DNA from: an uncultured Desulfobacterium sp.
Lineage (GTDB): Bacteria > Desulfobacterota > Desulfobacteria > Desulfobacterales > Desulfobacteraceae
Length of the DNA stretch: 6,229 nt
Reading direction: 5' to 3'
Assembly: GCA_937124525.1 (NCBI GenBank)
Contig: CAKZLA010000093.1
Coordinates: 1-6,229, forward strand
Of the stretch, positions 1-6,229 are shown one piece after another. Below the pieces are notes generated by a model. That model made no database searches. It saw only the letters and a list, made by a program, of their open reading frames with translations, and was not told the DNA's origin. The position numbers and the translations under genes were made by a program. The number at the start of each line of letters is the position of its first letter. Position 1 is the stretch's first letter.

Positions 1-54
1 GAATATTGCCTCAGTAATATGCAACAGATAATCACCATCGGTTCTTTCAGACAT
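1..54 (-). CDS. hepT: HEPN-domain toxin (HepT/DUF86-like), N-terminal fragment cut by window edge
   Basis: Only the first 18 codons are in the window, reading MSERTDGDYLLHITEAIF. The short charged start followed by D-Y-L-L-x-x-I-x-E-A-I is the usual opening of HepT/DUF86 HEPN proteins. The start ATG (54-52) overlaps the stop of the upstream nucleotidyltransferase gene by 8 bases (ATGTCTGA), which implies translational coupling. In characterised pairs the HEPN protein is an RNase toxin with an R-x4-H-x-Y active site, and the partner MNT enzyme neutralises it by AMPylating the Tyr. The active site lies outside the window, so activity cannot be judged. The identification rests on the short N-terminus plus the gene context. 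Confidence 0.65.
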   Translation of the reverse strand, partial: MSERTDGDYLLHITEAIF

Positions 55-346
55 AAATCACACTTTTTTTAATATCTTCGGCAATTCTTTTAACCGTAAT
101 TCCCTTTATGCCTTCAGGGGTTAAAACATCCGTTTTTATACCCAATACTTTTTCCAGATATTCTGTAAATTCGATAAATTTGAGACCTATGGGTTTTTCA
201 AATTCGGCGATAATGTCAATATCACTATTTTTTGTTTGCTCATTTTTAGAATAAGAGCCAAACAATCCAATTCTTTTCACACCATACTCAGCCATAAGGT
301 ATGGATATTGCTGTTTTATTTTCTTAATAATTGTTTCTTTATCCAT
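47..346 (-). CDS. mntA: Minimal nucleotidyltransferase, MNT-type antitoxin
   Basis: This is a 99-aa protein of the DNA polymerase beta-like nucleotidyltransferase superfamily, full length for the minimal (MNT) class. The signature G30-S31-(x10)-D42-x-D44 is intact (GSYSKNEQTKNSDIDI), and D73 in KTDVLT fits the third metal-binding carboxylate. In studied MntA-HepT pairs this enzyme transfers AMP from ATP to a tyrosine of the HEPN toxin and so silences it. The next gene downstream is indeed a HEPN-like start, overlapping by 8 bases. The start is fixed: an in-frame TAG lies directly upstream of the ATG at 346-344. A strong promoter sits close by (362-390). It would give a leader of only about 9 bases and would leave the GGAGA (361-357) outside the mRNA. 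The gene is AT-rich compared with the SMC-like operon. The family call is firm; the antitoxin role is inferred from its neighbour. Confidence 0.88.
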   Translation of the reverse strand: MDKETIIKKIKQQYPYLMAEYGVKRIGLFGSYSKNEQTKNSDIDIIAEFEKPIGLKFIEFTEYLEKVLGIKTDVLTPEGIKGITVKRIAEDIKKSVIYV

Positions 347-361
347 CTACATTCATTCTCC

Positions 362-390
362 ATTATAGTTTATGCTGGGCTTGGTCTCAA
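362..390 (-). promoter_or_regulatory. Sigma70-type promoter of the MNT-HEPN operon
   Basis: On the minus strand TTGAGA (390-385, five of six consensus bases) is followed after exactly 17 bases by a perfect TATAAT (367-362). The predicted start of transcription is near 355, only about 9 bases before the ATG at 346. The leader would be very short, and the upstream GGAGA would lie outside the transcript. This is the best promoter match in the window, and it gives the toxin-antitoxin pair transcription independent of the SMC-like operon. Confidence 0.7.
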
Positions 391-399
391 CATGGACCA
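382..399. promoter_or_regulatory. Inverted repeat overlapping the -35 box, possible operator
   Basis: TGGTC (382-386) and GACCA (395-399) form a perfect 5-bp dyad separated by 8 bases. The dyad covers part of the -35 hexamer of the MNT promoter (385-390). Type II toxin-antitoxin operons are often repressed by their own products at such sites, so an operator role is plausible. It is inferred only from the position; a 5-bp dyad can arise by chance. Confidence 0.3.
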
Positions 400-439
400 C
401 TCTGGGAAAGGGTTAGGCTTGCCTTATGGGCGTTACTTA

Positions 440-487
440 ACCCAATCTATAAAAGTGGGATTGATCATAAGATCTGCCACTTTGGGT
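440..487. terminator. Extended imperfect hairpin, possible weak terminator
   Basis: ACCCAA (440-445) pairs with TTGGGT (482-487) and AGTGG (454-458) with CCACT (477-481). Inside these, GATC (463-466) pairs with GATC (471-474) around an ATAA loop. Alternatively AAAGTGG (452-458) pairs with CCACTTT (477-483). Read on the minus strand, the latter stem ends in CCACTTTTAT, a weak T-rich tail that could end transcription from the SMC-like operon before the MNT promoter. The GC core is short and the T tract is poor, so the terminator role is uncertain. It could equally be a mobile-element remnant. Confidence 0.3.
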
Positions 488-507
488 CAGAGTCAGGGTC
501 AGGGTCA
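484..507. repeat. Four tandem GGGTCA hexamers
   Basis: Four consecutive hexamers, GGGTCA GAGTCA GGGTCA GGGTCA, followed by a partial GG. The second unit differs by one base. The array starts inside the right arm of the hairpin at 440-487. It could be a slippage-prone microsatellite or a protein-binding array; nothing else in the window matches it. Confidence 0.7.
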
Positions 508-589
508 GGCTTACCAATTATGACGTGTAGCCCATGTTGTGTGCAAGCACATACAAGTCAGAAACTTCCAACAATCATACCCAAAAGTC

Positions 590-601
590 AAGGGTACCCT
601 T
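590..601. repeat. Perfect 12-bp palindrome AAGGGTACCCTT
   Basis: The 12 bases are exactly self-complementary and the symmetry does not extend further. It lies 36 bases past the end of the 88-aa ORF. It could be a binding site for a dimeric protein, but no promoter is visible beside it. Confidence 0.35.
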
Positions 602-636
602 CCCAGTATAAGACTGTTTAATCTTAAAAGATTTTA

Positions 637-903
637 TCATGATTTCATCTCATATTCCAACGAATTAAGAATGACCTCCTCCTGGACAAATTGTTTCAGT
701 ATTCGAAGCAGCTTTTTTTCAAGGGGCAAGTCACTATCCTGAATTAGAGACCAATCCCTGGCGATACTAAAAAGCAAATCACCAAGAATCTTTTTCTTTG
801 TTGATGTGTGAAAGAATTCCTTCAATCCTTTGATGACGTTTAAATCAATAATTGTAGCCTTAAAAACGAATATGCAATAAACAGCCCATAAAAACTTGAT
901 CAT
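637..903 (-). CDS. Hypothetical 88-aa protein downstream of the SMC-like gene
   Basis: I do not recognise this ORF. Its ATG (903-901) lies 14 bases after the stop of the SMC-like gene, and an in-frame TAA nine bases upstream of the ATG rules out a longer form. No good Shine-Dalgarno is visible; re-initiation after the upstream stop would be the likely route. Residues 1-18 are hydrophobic (MIKFLWAVYCIFVF) and could be a membrane anchor. Residues 20-88 look helical and charged, with heptad-like Leu and Ile spacing and an acidic C-terminus. The codons are much more AT-rich than in the ATPase gene. It may be a small accessory protein, or the stub of a gene lost where a JetD-like nuclease would sit in a Wadjet operon. 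The sequence shows no nuclease motif. Confidence 0.4.
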   Translation of the reverse strand: MIKFLWAVYCIFVFKATIIDLNVIKGLKEFFHTSTKKKILGDLLFSIARDWSLIQDSDLPLEKKLLRILKQFVQEEVILNSLEYEMKS

Positions 904-917
904 CGAGTATTATTGAA

Positions 918-3900
918 TCATTCTCGTTCCTCCACGTTCTGTTCAATGACTTCCAGGCAATTGAAGGGCTTGTCTCCCACCTGGAGGTGTTTGCCACTGT
1001 GGCGGATGGCCACCCGGTGCTGGAAAAGACCCAGAGATTCCCGGTCATTGATACCGGTGAAATAGATACACTGAATACCCATGGCCCGGGCTACCTTGAG
1101 CTGGGTGTCCAGAAAATCAGAACGGTTACACACCCCCAGGGGGTTATCGGCAATGAGAAAGGCAGGGATACGATCATCCCTCTTGTTCCGGCGTTTTTGG
1201 CGCATGGACGTGAGAAGAGAATAGAGAAGCACCGCCGTGGTCAGGGCCTCGCCCCCGGAACCCAGATCTTTGCCCACGGGCTCATAATTACGCCCGGTAT
1301 CATCACATTTAAGCAGGCGGATGCCAAACTCCTGTTTTGCCGAAGAGACCTTGAGCAGCCGATAAAGAAGCTCCATGCCCAGTGTATCCCCGGCTCTGGC
1401 AGTGACCTCCGGAATATAATTTTTCTGGATCAACTCATCCAGCCAGTTATCAATGGTTTTGCGATAGATCAGTGTGTGCCGGGTGAAATCCAGGCGGGCA
1501 CCAGCCTTTAAAATGGGCTTTCCCCCATAGACAAACACGTTGTCGGGCATGAGTTGTTTTGAAGCGGTCTGGAGTTTTTGATAAGAGACCCTGACATGCT
1601 GGAAGAGTTGGTCCACAAGGCTTTCCACAAACTGGGCCGACCGGGACAGATCGCTTTCTATGTTGGCGGCAATGTGGCTGCATTTTTCCATGAGTTCACT
1701 GCTCTGGGTTCCCATACTTTCCGCATCGTGCCGGGAAAGCTCATCCACAATGGCTGGCAATTGCTTCTTTAACGTTTCATCCCTGAGTTCCCCCTGGAGC
1801 CGGTCAAAGGCATTCCCCATATTTTTCCGGCTGTTTTCCATAAGGGCTTCCATTTTCTTCCGGGAATTCAGGATCACTTCCATCTGTTTTTTGAATTTCA
1901 CCGCATTGTTTACCCGGTTTTCCCCTTCCACCCGGACCAGCTCCAGCCAGTTCCCCCGGGGGGAGAGACTATCCCAGCAGGGCACCTGCCCCGTCAACAT
2001 GGCCAGGGAAAGCTTGAGTTCATTCACCCATCGGCGATTTTTATCCAGATCCGCTGCCTGGAGTGCCCCATATTTTTTAAGCTCATTGAATTTTTCTTCC
2101 TGGGCTTCGGCCACCTTGCCATAGTGAAGCATCAGCCCTTCCAAATCAGTATTTTTGAGATCTTCCAGGTCAATGTCTCCATGGATGCCCTGGCGGGACA
2201 ACGTTTTCAATTTTTCCCCGCAGCGGGCAAGATCCCGGTTCCGGCCTTCCAACTGCACTTTCTGCCCAGCCAGCTGCTCTTTAAGATCCGCCACAATAAC
2301 CGAAAGTGCTGCCATGCGTTCATCTCGCTCCCGGCTGCTTTTTCCGGCCCATTTTTCAGCTATCCCTTCATCAAAAATATTTTTACTGCGATATCGATGC
2401 AAATCGTTTGTAATCTTCTGGAGCCTCTCCCTCACCCGCTGCAGCTCATCCCTCAATCCATCTATCCCCAGCTCACTGGCAATGCGGATGGCATTGCTCT
2501 GGGCTTGTTCATGCTGCTTTCTAAGGGTGGTAAGGTCCATGGACAAGGCCTGTTGAGTCTGTTCTTCATTGAGAACTATCCCCTCTGAGACCGGGATGTC
2601 ATCGGCTCGATCCTCCAGGTTTTTCAACTCCGCCCTCTTCTGGGCCATGGCGCTGTGAATAAGGGTGAGGGTATCACCAGTTTCTTTTTCCTTGTCCCTA
2701 ATCTGGGCGGCAACATGGTTCATCTCCACCCTTTGGATCTCTTTTTGGGAAAGGTCTTTTTTCCAGCCACCCATGTCCCCATACTGGGCAAGCCAAGTCT
2801 TCACAAGTTTTACCACCTGTTCCAACCGGGCCAGGGTCCGGGTTTCCGTATGCAAAATATCTTCCAGCTCTTTTTTTCTGACTCCGTTGGTCTCCCCTTC
2901 CTTTTCCACTGCCTGGATCTTAGATGCAATGGCAAGTAGGGATTCCCCGGCAACTGCCACATTCCGGGACAACAGTTCCACCGCAGCCATGTCAGGATAT
3001 TTTTCCCGGTAGCCATTGAGGCTGCGCTGGGTTTTTTCCATGGATTCAATCCTGGACAAACGCTGGGACAGCTCTTTTTCAAGTTTTTCCTGTTTCCCGG
3101 CAAAAAACTTTTTTTGATCCTCCAGATAGCTTTTGCTGTACACAATGGGGTCCTGGGGTGAGATCACCGGAAACTCAATGCCCTGCCGGTCCATATCCCG
3201 GGGAGTGGATATCACCACGGGCTTGTAAAGCCAAGGGGGCACAGGAATATTTTGCACTTTCTCAATCACCCCATGGGTGGCAGCCATGATACCGCTGAAC
3301 CGTCCTGGATCACCCTCCACCACCCGGGCGATCTCTTCCGGGGTTTTATCAAGCCCGGACAGATAATCCAGAAAGGGCTTTACCTCAGCCGGGGAGAGTC
3401 CCTCTGATGTGTAATGGGCAATGAGTTTTGCCACCTGGTCATCCACCACCAGGGAGTTCATGTTTTCCAAACGCTTTAATTCGTTTTTAACTTCCAGAAT
3501 TTGTTCTTGAAAGGCGTGTGTACCCGTGCGGGTCCGGGCCATGGATTCCCCAAGGCGTGTGGCAAGCTCCGCCCTTGTGGGCTCGAAGGTTGCAACACCT
3601 GCGATGCGTATAAGGTGGGCATCTCCAAGCAGAAGTGTTCTTTGGCCCCTTTCATCGGCCATGGATTTTTCAGCCAGTTTCAGGATTTCCTCTTCCTGGA
3701 TCTGGGATCGATGCAATTGACTTGAGCGCTCCTGGGTCTTTTTTTGCAAATTTCCAAGGTCCCGGAGTTGGGTGGTGGTCTGCTCCAAGGTTTTTTCACA
3801 ATCATGGACCTCTTTCCCCAGCCTTGTCAGGCTCTGTCCAGGGGCTTCCCCGGGGGCAAGACCTAAATTTTCCCGGGCCATGACAGCACCCTTAATCTGG

Positions 3901-5297
3901 GTCGTAAGACGGACAATATCACCATTCAAGGTCGATATCTCCCTGTCCTGCTCCAGGAGTTGTTCTTTCAGAGAATTATGCTTTTCCTGGGTGGCCTGTA
4001 TCTCTTTTTCCATGGCCGTAACGGCAGAAATGGATTCCATCTGCTGGCTGTTTAACCTGGTATGGTACTGGGCCGCCCGGAGATCCACCTGCCGCTGTGC
4101 CGGTTCCAGGTCAGAGGTCCGATGGGCCAGAATTTTATCTTTGGATTCCACCTCGGCTTTGAACTGTCTCTGGGAAGCCATATAGTCTGCAGCCTTAAGA
4201 GCCACACCTTCATTTTGGAATTCCTCCAGTTTTTTATCCGCTTCCCGGATCAACCCTTTGAGCTTATGGCTTTCCCGGCTGTGGCCGACCTCTTCCACCT
4301 TCACCTGATTGGCCTGGGCAGTGTCCCGGGCACGAATTGTCTCTTTTTGTTGATCCCGATTATTTTTCACTGCAGCATCCGCCACTTCAAGGGCCATGTC
4401 GGCCTCTTTCCTGGCAGAGTTCAGCAAATGAGCAGCTTCTCCAAGCTGTAACCTGCAATTTTCCATGTCCTTGTGGGCCCTACGCCACTCCCGGCCCATA
4501 TCGTGGAAATCCTCCATGTTCTTCTTAAGAGATAACACCGCATCCAGTTGTTTTTTCTTTTCAGGACGATTTTTCATTTTGGAAATGGTCTGGGCCGTGT
4601 TTTTCCTGATGTCCATGGCAGCATCAAGGTCCGACACACACCCCAGAAAAAAACTGAGAAAATCTGCCTCACTTTTAAATTTAAACGAATCCTTGATCCC
4701 CCCTTCACTGCGGGAAAAATCCACCTGACGGTTCACCAGCCAGGGATCAAGCCCCAGGGATTCAAGTTTTTCCTCCCATTCTTTTTGACTGGCAGTCTGG
4801 TGGACCTTACCGCTTAAAAACTCTTTCACCGCAGTGTGGGGATGATTGGCGTTGGAAAGAGCCTCCCATTGCACACGAAGACTGTTAAACAATTCCCACT
4901 CGCCTATGAAATAGCTTCGCTCGATGTGATCCGGGGTGGTTTTCTTTCGGTGGAGAAGTTGCCCCAGCACCAGACGTTCCTGGGGTTGAGACTCAAAAAG
5001 GGTGGGGTCCAGATCCATGGAGAGCTCCAGCATCACCAGGGCAGGTCGGTCAGGTACCAGGTATTGCTCCAGTGTTTTGTCACCATTGGACTGGAGATAT
5101 TGCACAAAACGACGGCGATCAGGAACGAACACACTGAACAAAAAAGAGAGCAAGGTGGTCTTGCAGGAGCCGTTGGCAGCCACAATGATGCCATGCTCTG
5201 CCTGCTTGTTTTCTTTACAAATGGGGAAATAACCGTTTCTGAGAATATTTTCCCCGGCCACAAGATCACTGACAAAAAATCGACTAAGCTTATACAT
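918..5297 (-). CDS. SMC/MukB/JetC-like coiled-coil ATPase with atypical Walker motifs
   Basis: This is a 1459-aa protein of SMC/MukB architecture, close to MukB in length. The N-terminal head (about 1-210) holds a Walker A at 40-48, AANGSCKTT, with Ala40 and Cys45 at the usual Gly positions and K46-T47 intact. Long Lys/Glu/Gln-rich coiled coils (about 230-600 and 722-1230) flank a compact hinge-like region (about 610-722, Pro- and Gly-richer, e.g. VQNIPVPPWLYKPVVIS). The C-terminal head has an ABC signature GSGGE (1346-1350) and a Walker B AFLIADNPLG (1379-1388), with Asn1385 where the catalytic Glu normally stands. SMC proteins dimerise through the hinge and use ATP to trap or extrude DNA. 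Related JetC proteins sense plasmid DNA. I chose the ATG at 5297 because it overlaps the upstream stop by 8 bases (ATGTATAA) and has GAGGTG at 5307-5302. A start at 5402 would add 35 residues encoded inside the previous gene. SMC-like ATPase is firm; the subfamily is not. Confidence 0.9.
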   Translation of the reverse strand: MYKLSRFFVSDLVAGENILRNGYFPICKENKQAEHGIIVAANGSCKTTLLSFLFSVFVPDRRRFVQYLQSNGDKTLEQYLVPDRPALVMLELSMDLDPTLFESQPQERLVLGQLLHRKKTTPDHIERSYFIGEWELFNSLRVQWEALSNANHPHTAVKEFLSGKVHQTASQKEWEEKLESLGLDPWLVNRQVDFSRSEGGIKDSFKFKSEADFLSFFLGCVSDLDAAMDIRKNTAQTISKMKNRPEKKKQLDAVLSLKKNMEDFHDMGREWRRAHKDMENCRLQLGEAAHLLNSARKEADMALEVADAAVKNNRDQQKETIRARDTAQANQVKVEEVGHSRESHKLKGLIREADKKLEEFQNEGVALKAADYMASQRQFKAEVESKDKILAHRTSDLEPAQRQVDLRAAQYHTRLNSQQMESISAVTAMEKEIQATQEKHNSLKEQLLEQDREISTLNGDIVRLTTQIKGAVMARENLGLAPGEAPGQSLTRLGKEVHDCEKTLEQTTTQLRDLGNLQKKTQERSSQLHRSQIQEEEILKLAEKSMADERGQRTLLLGDAHLIRIAGVATFEPTRAELATRLGESMARTRTGTHAFQEQILEVKNELKRLENMNSLVVDDQVAKLIAHYTSEGLSPAEVKPFLDYLSGLDKTPEEIARVVEGDPGRFSGIMAATHGVIEKVQNIPVPPWLYKPVVISTPRDMDRQGIEFPVISPQDPIVYSKSYLEDQKKFFAGKQEKLEKELSQRLSRIESMEKTQRSLNGYREKYPDMAAVELLSRNVAVAGESLLAIASKIQAVEKEGETNGVRKKELEDILHTETRTLARLEQVVKLVKTWLAQYGDMGGWKKDLSQKEIQRVEMNHVAAQIRDKEKETGDTLTLIHSAMAQKRAELKNLEDRADDIPVSEGIVLNEEQTQQALSMDLTTLRKQHEQAQSNAIRIASELGIDGLRDELQRVRERLQKITNDLHRYRSKNIFDEGIAEKWAGKSSRERDERMAALSVIVADLKEQLAGQKVQLEGRNRDLARCGEKLKTLSRQGIHGDIDLEDLKNTDLEGLMLHYGKVAEAQEEKFNELKKYGALQAADLDKNRRWVNELKLSLAMLTGQVPCWDSLSPRGNWLELVRVEGENRVNNAVKFKKQMEVILNSRKKMEALMENSRKNMGNAFDRLQGELRDETLKKQLPAIVDELSRHDAESMGTQSSELMEKCSHIAANIESDLSRSAQFVESLVDQLFQHVRVSYQKLQTASKQLMPDNVFVYGGKPILKAGARLDFTRHTLIYRKTIDNWLDELIQKNYIPEVTARAGDTLGMELLYRLLKVSSAKQEFGIRLLKCDDTGRNYEPVGKDLGSGGEALTTAVLLYSLLTSMRQKRRNKRDDRIPAFLIADNPLGVCNRSDFLDTQLKVARAMGIQCIYFTGINDRESLGLFQHRVAIRHSGKHLQVGDKPFNCLEVIEQNVEERE

Positions 5298-6099
5298 GGG
5301 GCACCTCGGCTGGGGGGGATGAGGGGGATGGGGGAATTTCCGGGGAATCATCCCCAGGGAGAATGGACTTTTTTTTCTCTGCCACAAGCTCCCGAAAGGC
5401 ATGAAAGACGTACACCGATGCCGTGCGCATGGCGCTCTGGTAAGCGGGTGTGGGGCGGTACTCCATCTCTTCTTCCGCCTCTTCCTGGAATTCCAGAAGA
5501 TAACCTGTGTCCACCATGTGTTCCAGCACCCGTATAATTAACTCAAGCCAGCTATTGCCCCCCACGGCCCGTTTGCTGTCGGGATTTTCCTCGGGAAGTT
5601 CCCTGAGTCTCTGGGCTGCTGTTCTCACCTCCGGGTGGAGGATCTCATCCGCCGGGTCCATGCTCTCTTCTGCCTTGGCAAACACCCGAAGGATGTCAAT
5701 GACATCACCGGAAACGATGACCCCCAAATCCTCCACCGGGGCATCCAAGTCCGATTCTGTGGGAAAAAATGCAGTGGCCACGGCACAATGCACGCAGAGC
5801 AATTCCCCGGCTTTCAGGGGAGTTCTGCCAAGCATTTTGCCATAATCGGTGAGGGTGCTGGCAAAAAAACTGGCCCCATTCCGGGCAGATAGTCTAAGGG
5901 CCAGGGGTTCCACCTCCAAAAGTTGTAATTCCATGCCCCGGAGGTTTTCCATCACGGCCCGGTGAAAGGCATCCTCTGCCTGGAACCGCTGGAGCAGCTC
6001 CATGAGTTCTGTCTGATGGTCGCTGATAATTCGTTTGTTGCCGTTACTGTATGCCAGACTAAGATAGACAAGTCGGCTGATCTCGTAAATGTTTTCCAT
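5290..6099 (-). CDS. Probable small SMC-partner subunit (MukE/MksE/JetB-like)
   Basis: This 269-aa soluble protein is encoded directly before the SMC-like ATPase and overlaps it by 8 bases, so the two are probably translationally coupled and made together. There is no signal peptide or clear membrane segment. Residues 1-80 are helical. Residues 182-225 have a winged-helix-like pattern: a Leu/Ile-rich helix, then DTGYLLEF, an acidic loop (EEAEEEMEYR) and PTPAYQ. MukE, MksE and JetB are winged-helix proteins of about this size next to their ATPase and kleisin, and position and shape suggest that role. The tail (about 248-269) is Pro/Ser-rich (PEIPPSPSSPP) and probably disordered. The ATG at 6099 is preceded only by a weak AGAG. 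I do not recognise the sequence itself, so the partner role is an inference. A kleisin or an unrelated regulator would also be possible. Confidence 0.55.
   Translation of the reverse strand: MENIYEISRLVYLSLAYSNGNKRIISDHQTELMELLQRFQAEDAFHRAVMENLRGMELQLLEVEPLALRLSARNGASFFASTLTDYGKMLGRTPLKAGELLCVHCAVATAFFPTESDLDAPVEDLGVIVSGDVIDILRVFAKAEESMDPADEILHPEVRTAAQRLRELPEENPDSKRAVGGNSWLELIIRVLEHMVDTGYLLEFQEEAEEEMEYRPTPAYQSAMRTASVYVFHAFRELVAEKKKSILPGDDSPEIPPSPSSPPAEVPHV
5302..5307 (-). promoter_or_regulatory. Ribosome binding site that fixes the start of the SMC-like gene
   Basis: GAGGTG on the minus strand lies 4 bases before the ATG at 5297, inside the last codons of the upstream gene. Together with the 8-base start/stop overlap it selects this ATG over the in-frame one at 5402. 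Confidence 0.6.
5312..5345 (+). other. Potential G-quadruplex motif at the gene junction
   Basis: The plus strand carries four G runs: 5312-5318 (7), 5323-5327 (5), 5330-5334 (5) and 5342-5345 (4). The loops are 4, 2 and 7 bases. This meets the usual sequence rule for an intramolecular quadruplex. It lies in the template strand of the operon, over the codons for the Pro-rich tail of the 269-aa protein and just before the ATPase start. The repeated CCC Pro codons may be the simple cause. Confidence 0.4.
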
Positions 6100-6229
6100 G
6101 GTGATGTCTCTATGTTTTATGCCGAAAATGAGTCGGCGGTATTTTTTTTATAAAAAACTCCGTCCAATGATTTGTAATAACTGGAGTTTCGATATTTGTT
6201 GTGGGCAGGCCCAAACCCCAATATGGTCT
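6100..6229. other. AT-rich upstream edge; leader or end of an upstream gene
   Basis: On the plus strand a 5-bp hairpin GCCGA-AAATGAG-TCGGC (6121-6137) is followed after GGTA by eight T. This overlaps a perfect 14-bp A/T palindrome TTTTTTATAAAAAA (6144-6157). Plus-oriented it resembles a weak intrinsic terminator, though no plus-strand gene leads to it. All three minus-strand frames are open from the edge for at least 26 codons. One ends at TAG 6112-6110, ten bases before the 269-aa gene (…IKKIPPTHFRHKT). Another ends at TAA 6119-6117 (…YKKNTADSFSA). Either could be the C-terminus of an upstream gene such as a kleisin, but I recognise neither. I see no strong promoter here. Confidence 0.35.

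Follow-up and report, generated by a model that had tools for sequence, protein, structure and literature searches.

The jetC locus and its product

The 6,229-nucleotide stretch of DNA considered here (uncultured Desulfobacterium sp., GenBank assembly GCA_937124525.1, contig CAKZLA010000093.1, positions 1 to 6,229; the whole of it is called the window below) carries on its reverse strand jetC, the gene for the ATPase of a type III system of Wadjet, a bacterial defence against plasmids; this ATPase (JetC3) has an asparagine where the catalytic glutamate of the Walker B motif is expected. That glutamate is taken as the hallmark of an active motor of the structural maintenance of chromosomes (SMC) class, and its replacement by glutamine is the standard mutation for freezing such motors. 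From the sequences compared, the exchange of Glu for Asn looks like a trait of the JetC3 type, present in nearly every member examined, and not like decay. The features discussed are collected in Table 1.

The window protein is an SMC-like ATPase, the JetC of a type III Wadjet, and its head lobes are of the MukB/JetC kind. PADLOC assigns it to JetC3 (PDLC00578, 7.5e-77, residues 36-1474 of the 1,494-residue frame), and 1,290 of its 1,459 residues are identical in the JetC of Desulfocicer vacuolatum DSM 3385 (L001). The frame is open, with an enclosing minus-strand open reading frame at 918-5402 that contains the Asp-Asn-Pro site, and the true start is probably the ATG at 5295-5297, which gives the same 1,459 residues as the closest relative, P0001, a relative at the 90% level. 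Residues are numbered from this Met; the alignment reference (window:918-5306:-) begins three residues earlier, so that D1384, N1385 and P1386 of the Walker B motif are D1387, N1388 and P1389 in alignment numbering. Pfam and NCBIfam gave no significant match to the window JetC, PDB sequences gave none, and the top 60 rows of a search of the PDB with the JetC3 family profile were coiled-coil stretches, with no heads among them. At the thresholds used, viral contigs and phage records contained no relatives.

Table 1. Features of the window, with positions numbered from its first letter
Feature	Position	Strand	Remarks
jetC (type III Wadjet SMC-like ATPase, JetC3)	918..5297	-	1,459 residues; probable ATG at 5295-5297; overlaps the end of jetB
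Walker A, AANGSCKT	5157..5180	-	Lys invariant; Cys for the last Gly, specific to the clade
Glu201 of the Glu-Gly motif	4704..4706	-	320/320 in JetC3; second, weaker candidate acid
ABC signature, LGSGGE	1248..1265	-	Ser-Gly-Gly in 320/320
Walker B, FLIADNP	1140..1160	-	Asp GAT 1146-1148; Asn AAC 1143-1145, at the place of the catalytic Glu; Pro CCC 1140-1142
H-loop region, TGIND	1044..1058	-	acid at the last position (D1421, 1044-1046); candidate replacement acid
jetB-like gene (position of the KITE subunit)	5290..6099	-	269 residues; 243/266 identical to the gene between JetA3 and JetC3 in D. vacuolatum
jetD remnant	670..852	-	first 61 of 377 codons; 66% identical

Asparagine at the Walker B site across JetC3

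A sequence-only reading of the window, made without database searches, had placed an Asn directly after the Walker B Asp, in FLIADNP, and translation confirms this down to the residue numbers D1384 and N1385. The spread of the motif was followed in three homologue sets, seeded with the window protein (82 sequences), a Polaromonas JetC (the best 120 of 344) and the JetC of a Rhodococcus plasmid (the best 120 of 1,520). By motif count among the matches listed, Asp-Asn-Pro occurs in 82/82, 120/120 and 119/120 of these, 321/322 in total, and the sole listed homologue without it (P0274) is a 1,047-residue piece; all six further sequences, namely the window itself, L002, L003, L004, L012 and L014, have it as well. 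In an alignment of the heads, for which nine truncated or irregular sequences were removed from 329 to leave 320 rows, the Walker B column is Asn in 320/320 and reads Asp-Asn-Pro throughout. The rows are not independent, since some are closely related and one at least is duplicated (L014 = P0203), and the names available for part of the sequences point mainly to Desulfobacterota, Proteobacteria and Actinomycetota. Two weak partial JetC3 matches (L009 and L010) showed no JetC3 Walker B on translation and were excluded from all counts.

JetC3 models fall into several lineages, and beyond those searched Asp-Asn-Pro is also found in Pontibacillus (P0323), one of the Bacillota, and in L098, L099 and L100. 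The JetC3 of Priestia megaterium, likewise of the Bacillota (L037 13073-17650, plus strand; PDLC00584, 3.6e-97) has Asp-His-Leu-Phe-Gly at Walker B, again without Glu; its Walker A, NGDGKG, is unusual too. The sequence-only reading had looked to homologues with Asp-Glu at this site as counter-evidence; none was seen among the JetC3 sequences compared, and Asp-Glu appeared only in outgroups. The actinobacterial proteins with D-N-P-x-G that it mentioned are real, DNPIG being present in 119/120 among the matches listed, and the stretch after Asp-Asn that it had taken for conserved, NPLGVCNRSDFLD(T/A)Q, indeed recurs with minor variation among the homologues of the set seeded with the window protein, the Asp-Asn-Pro core being more widespread.

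The outgroups keep the glutamate. A sample of 198 genomes from the same phylum yielded type I JetC in 6, with DEAFG in 6/6; E. coli MukB has D1406-E1407; and a simple pattern finds the DE motif in 23 of the 25 canonical SMCs fetched, the other two being one off-target match and one without the motif. A profile alignment of the C-lobes, anchored by Ser-Gly-Gly and D-x-x-x-G, places JetC3 DNPLG on JetC1 DEAFG, although the match is weak (E 0.0038, probability 8.7%). The search for type II JetC with PADLOC PDLC00551 gave just weak partial matches, the best at 2.5e-8, which resembled coiled-coil noise. With these outgroups, a single loss of Glu at the base of JetC3 would be the parsimonious reading.

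Selection on jetC

Across 19 sequences, those of the window and of 18 loci, AAC encodes the Asn 12 times and AAT 7 times, and the codon differs synonymously between the window and D. vacuolatum. The ratio of nonsynonymous to synonymous substitution rates (dN/dS) for jetC in this pair is 0.19 by YN00 and 0.15 by NG86, and of 760 positions on which 8 or more of the 9 outgroup proteins agree, 9 are changed only in the window and 17 only in D. vacuolatum. The window jetC is under purifying selection, with no acceleration on its branch relative to that of its relative.

Might the Asn nevertheless be the broken catalytic site of a degenerating locus, or might Asp-Asn-Pro be something other than Walker B, with the true Asp-Glu elsewhere? 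The truncation of jetD in the window lends the former idea some color. However, the relatives compared have the same Asn, among them genomes whose jetD is full-length, and the low dN/dS and the unaccelerated window branch speak against decay of the Walker B residue, which we therefore reject as highly improbable; because the motif is fixed across JetC3 rows, the codon change synonymous and dN/dS low, the earlier suggestion of a family trait is supported. A misread motif could be suspected from the low identity, just ~10-15%, in structure matches of JetC3 to known SMC heads. Against it, Asp-Asn-Pro is predicted to lie one strand after the signature helix, as in heads of the ATP-binding cassette (ABC) type (in the AlphaFold2 model of the C-lobe a strand leads into Asp-Asn-Pro), it aligns, with a weak score, with the D-E-A-F-G of JetC1, and it belongs to the handful of invariant blocks in the JetC3 family. 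On these three grounds misreading is likewise rejected, having very little chance of being right.

Other motifs of the ATPase head

Invariant in 320/320 rows are the Asn-Gly and Lys of Walker A, the Ser-Gly-Gly of the signature, the Asp-Asn-Pro of Walker B, Trp177, Glu201-Gly202 and Gln1412. Measured against GxxxxGK[ST], the window Walker A keeps Lys and Thr and has both outer Gly residues replaced; most other JetC3 proteins among the matches listed have ENGGGK[ST]. The Walker A Cys (NG[ST]CKT) occurs in 78 of 320 JetC3 rows, these being the window, L002 and members of the homologue set seeded with the window protein.

At the position of the H-loop His, JetC3 has no His (Gly in 201 and Ala in 119 of the 320 rows), and by hand alignment this His is absent from type I JetC and MukB as well. 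The residue at 1421 is acidic in 320/320 JetC3 rows (Asp in 317, Glu in 3) and Lys in 6/6 type I JetC. For the Q-loop Gln, a weak SMC profile alignment points to Q174, where Gln stands in 235/320 rows; Glu201, considered as the Q-loop Gln position, was dropped after this alignment. The Glu-Gly pair precedes the first coiled coil, and Glu201 is kept in five further JetC3 proteins of other lineages, including the Priestia protein with His at Walker B and L100.

How might JetC3 use ATP?

Because the core residues for nucleotide binding and head engagement are invariant, ATP binding and head engagement should persist in JetC3. Additionally, the strictness of the Asn, which is fixed instead of drifting among several residues, argues that its side chain does something. 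Hydrolysis matters in type I Wadjet; JetC3 would have either another base or a way of working without cycling. The reading we put forward, to which we give about an even chance, is that hydrolysis is weakened but not abolished. In this proposal, ATP would bind and join two JetC heads around DNA; the Asn would help to position the attacking water, and the role of the base would pass to another group, most likely the always-acidic D1421, three residues beyond the place of the H-loop His. A possible shift of the base to this site is suggested by the acid in 320/320 JetC3 rows, where type I has Lys, and an exchange of the Glu/Lys of type I for Asn/acid is the reading we prefer, as a proposal. ABC heads contact the gamma-phosphate near the H-loop His, and residue 1421 is close to there in the sequence. 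Such a motor would run slowly and under tight gating, sensing plasmid DNA first and licensing the JetD nuclease afterwards.

Several points weigh against this proposal. Asn itself is unable to serve as a general base. The acid at 1421 is not universal, as the Priestia protein with Asp-His-Leu has Ala there (hand alignment) and L100 carries its Asp one residue later, and the alignment of the JetC3 and JetC1 C-lobes is the weak one described above. Two of the 11 JetC3 genomes searched (G002 and G217) gave no jetD. Precedents in the literature, in the accessible parts of the papers cited, also count on this side: hydrolysis by MksB of C. glutamicum, whose E1042Q variant is impaired as an ATPase, is not required for the nuclease activity of MksG in vitro (PMC10123090), and the natural Glu-to-Gln of Lamassu LmuB is read as low or no hydrolysis (PMC10586767).

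The same two precedents favor the chief competitor of weakened hydrolysis, in which ATP-bound heads would engage DNA with essentially no hydrolysis and engagement alone would activate JetD, making JetC3 a one-shot sensor locked by ATP. ABC heads are classically trapped by removing the Glu, and the residues for ATP binding and engagement are retained in the JetC3 alignment; in LmuB, moreover, which generally has the Glu-to-Gln change, activation is thought likely to be irreversible (PMC10586767). We regard this competitor as possible but doubtful, since DNA cleavage by type I JetABCD requires ATP and a functioning JetC ATPase (PMC10586767), E1407Q in MukB abolishes DNA entrapment by MukBEF (PMC7617805), and a dispensable site should drift among Asn, Gln, Asp and Ser, whereas Asn is fixed in 320/320. 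Carried further, the exchange of Glu/Lys for Asn/acid would mean that the catalytic acid has moved and that type III is a distinct class of SMC motor, with a rewired active site that still hydrolyzes ATP; this stronger form seems unlikely to us. We think it more unlikely still that the missing acid is Glu201, reaching into the active site from the Glu-Gly motif of the N-lobe. Its invariance, extending to the five JetC3 proteins of other lineages and even to the one with His at Walker B, speaks for it, as does Val or Leu at this place in type I JetC by an ungapped local reading by eye. That JetC1 register was set by eye, however: aligned locally by profile, the N-lobes match over Walker A alone, and a forced global alignment fails to show the register. 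Furthermore, the SMC profile alignment places Glu201 at the EEAAG motif, which lies beyond the Q-loop near the neck of the coiled coil (weakly, with a probability of 48% and low confidence here), and the model is of low confidence in this region, with a predicted local distance difference test score (pLDDT) of about 50. The Asn as a trait of JetC3 is well supported by the sequences compared, and weakened hydrolysis with a displaced base is a proposal.

Neighboring genes and related loci

In D. vacuolatum the gene order is JetA (JetA3, 5.1e-31), a JetB-like gene, JetC and JetD (JetD3, 1.6e-56). In the window, jetB and jetC look intact and jetD is truncated. The jetB-like gene does not reach the PADLOC JetB models and is a putative jetB by synteny and identity; jetA gave no match within the window, whose edge lies close to the expected end of jetA. 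Beyond the remnant, the window gave no further match to jetD. Around the remnant (637-903 region), 83 unmatched bases separate it from the jetC match, as against 14 in D. vacuolatum; no repeats of at least 12 bases were found in the breakpoint region at 340-920, and Rfam gave no match in the window. On sequence, then, the window holds a nuclease-less derivative of a type III Wadjet locus, a JetBC pair, unless jetD lies elsewhere. With jetD broken, a complex made from the window locus could still bind DNA or move it but would leave it uncut, unless JetD were supplied from elsewhere. A nuclease-free afterlife of the locus is possible by analogy, because MukBEF and several other members of the Wadjet group also lack a nuclease (PMC7617805). 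Among the genomes with JetC3 matches, jetD was found in 9 of 11 (one match being broken), in some not adjoining jetC; all nine keep the VEN and GDxD motifs, and the D. vacuolatum JetD gave no match to PDB sequences.

Beside the broken jetD, the window has an MNT-type nucleotidyltransferase at 47-346 on the minus strand (PADLOC PDC-S09, 8.5e-25; MntA-like below the NCBIfam cut-off). The start of an open reading frame that follows it at the window edge (MSERTDGDYLLHITEAIF...) resembles what we take to be a HEPN partner, and the two are possibly a toxin-antitoxin pair.

Several related records deserve mention for their own sake. On the Salmonella plasmid pRM11065-2 (L013 5827-10253), a JetC3-like gene is annotated as two overlapping coding sequences, and the downstream JetD match coincides with no gene in the table, which is incomplete. 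A 4.9-Mb E. coli record labelled as a plasmid (L003, NZ_CP134663.1), with JetC3 and a JetD match, is probably a mislabelled chromosome. In genome G227 (L055 832-6337) the jetC pieces are separated and the jetD match covers codons 6-357, the reverse of the loss in the window; the stretch fetched there gave no JetA or JetB match. In the D. vacuolatum family (G001 and G200-G284), none of 86 genomes gave a match to canonical SMC (TIGR02168; E up to 1e-20, 7 best candidates scored per genome), whereas 33 of 39 genomes sampled from the phylum did so at E up to 1e-50, as did 11 of 14 controls. A protein search for SMC in this family was empty as well, but it had no positive control, and the profile search was relied on instead.

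Comparison with known systems

Most work on Wadjet has concerned type I, and types II and III are expected to clarify mechanistic differences (PMC10586767); a type II structure has since been released (9qe0, Neobacillus vireti). In the accessible text of the open literature we found no description of an Asn or of a Glu-less Walker B in JetC3, although an earlier report is possible. A Wadjet type without the Walker B Glu would offer a natural test of how plasmids are sensed; are repeated ATP cycles needed, as in loop extrusion, or is ATP-dependent head engagement enough?

The window protein resembles type III JetC (PADLOC JetC3, DUF3584) in its near-full-length profile match, its size and its Asp-Asn-Pro, and its clade differs by the Cys in Walker A; D. 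vacuolatum has a full jetD, whereas the window locus has the remnant alone. Compared with type I JetC/MksB (8as8, 8dk2; C. glutamicum MksB), JetC3 has Asp-Asn-Pro in place of D-E-A-F-G and an acid in place of the Lys after the H-loop, and it is longer by about 350 residues. MukB, unlike the window JetC, has both the Asp-Glu pair and a canonical Walker A, GGNGAGKS. Natural loss of the Walker B Glu has a precedent in Lamassu LmuB, because its Glu-to-Gln is already published; like JetC3, LmuB is an SMC/Rad50-like ATPase of a defence system (PMC10586767). The LmuB profile gave no match to the window protein up to E 1, and two distant JetC3 relatives match LmuB models weakly. LmuB differs in its size of about 650 residues, in its partners and effectors and in having Gln, where the window JetC, at 1,459 residues, has Asn.
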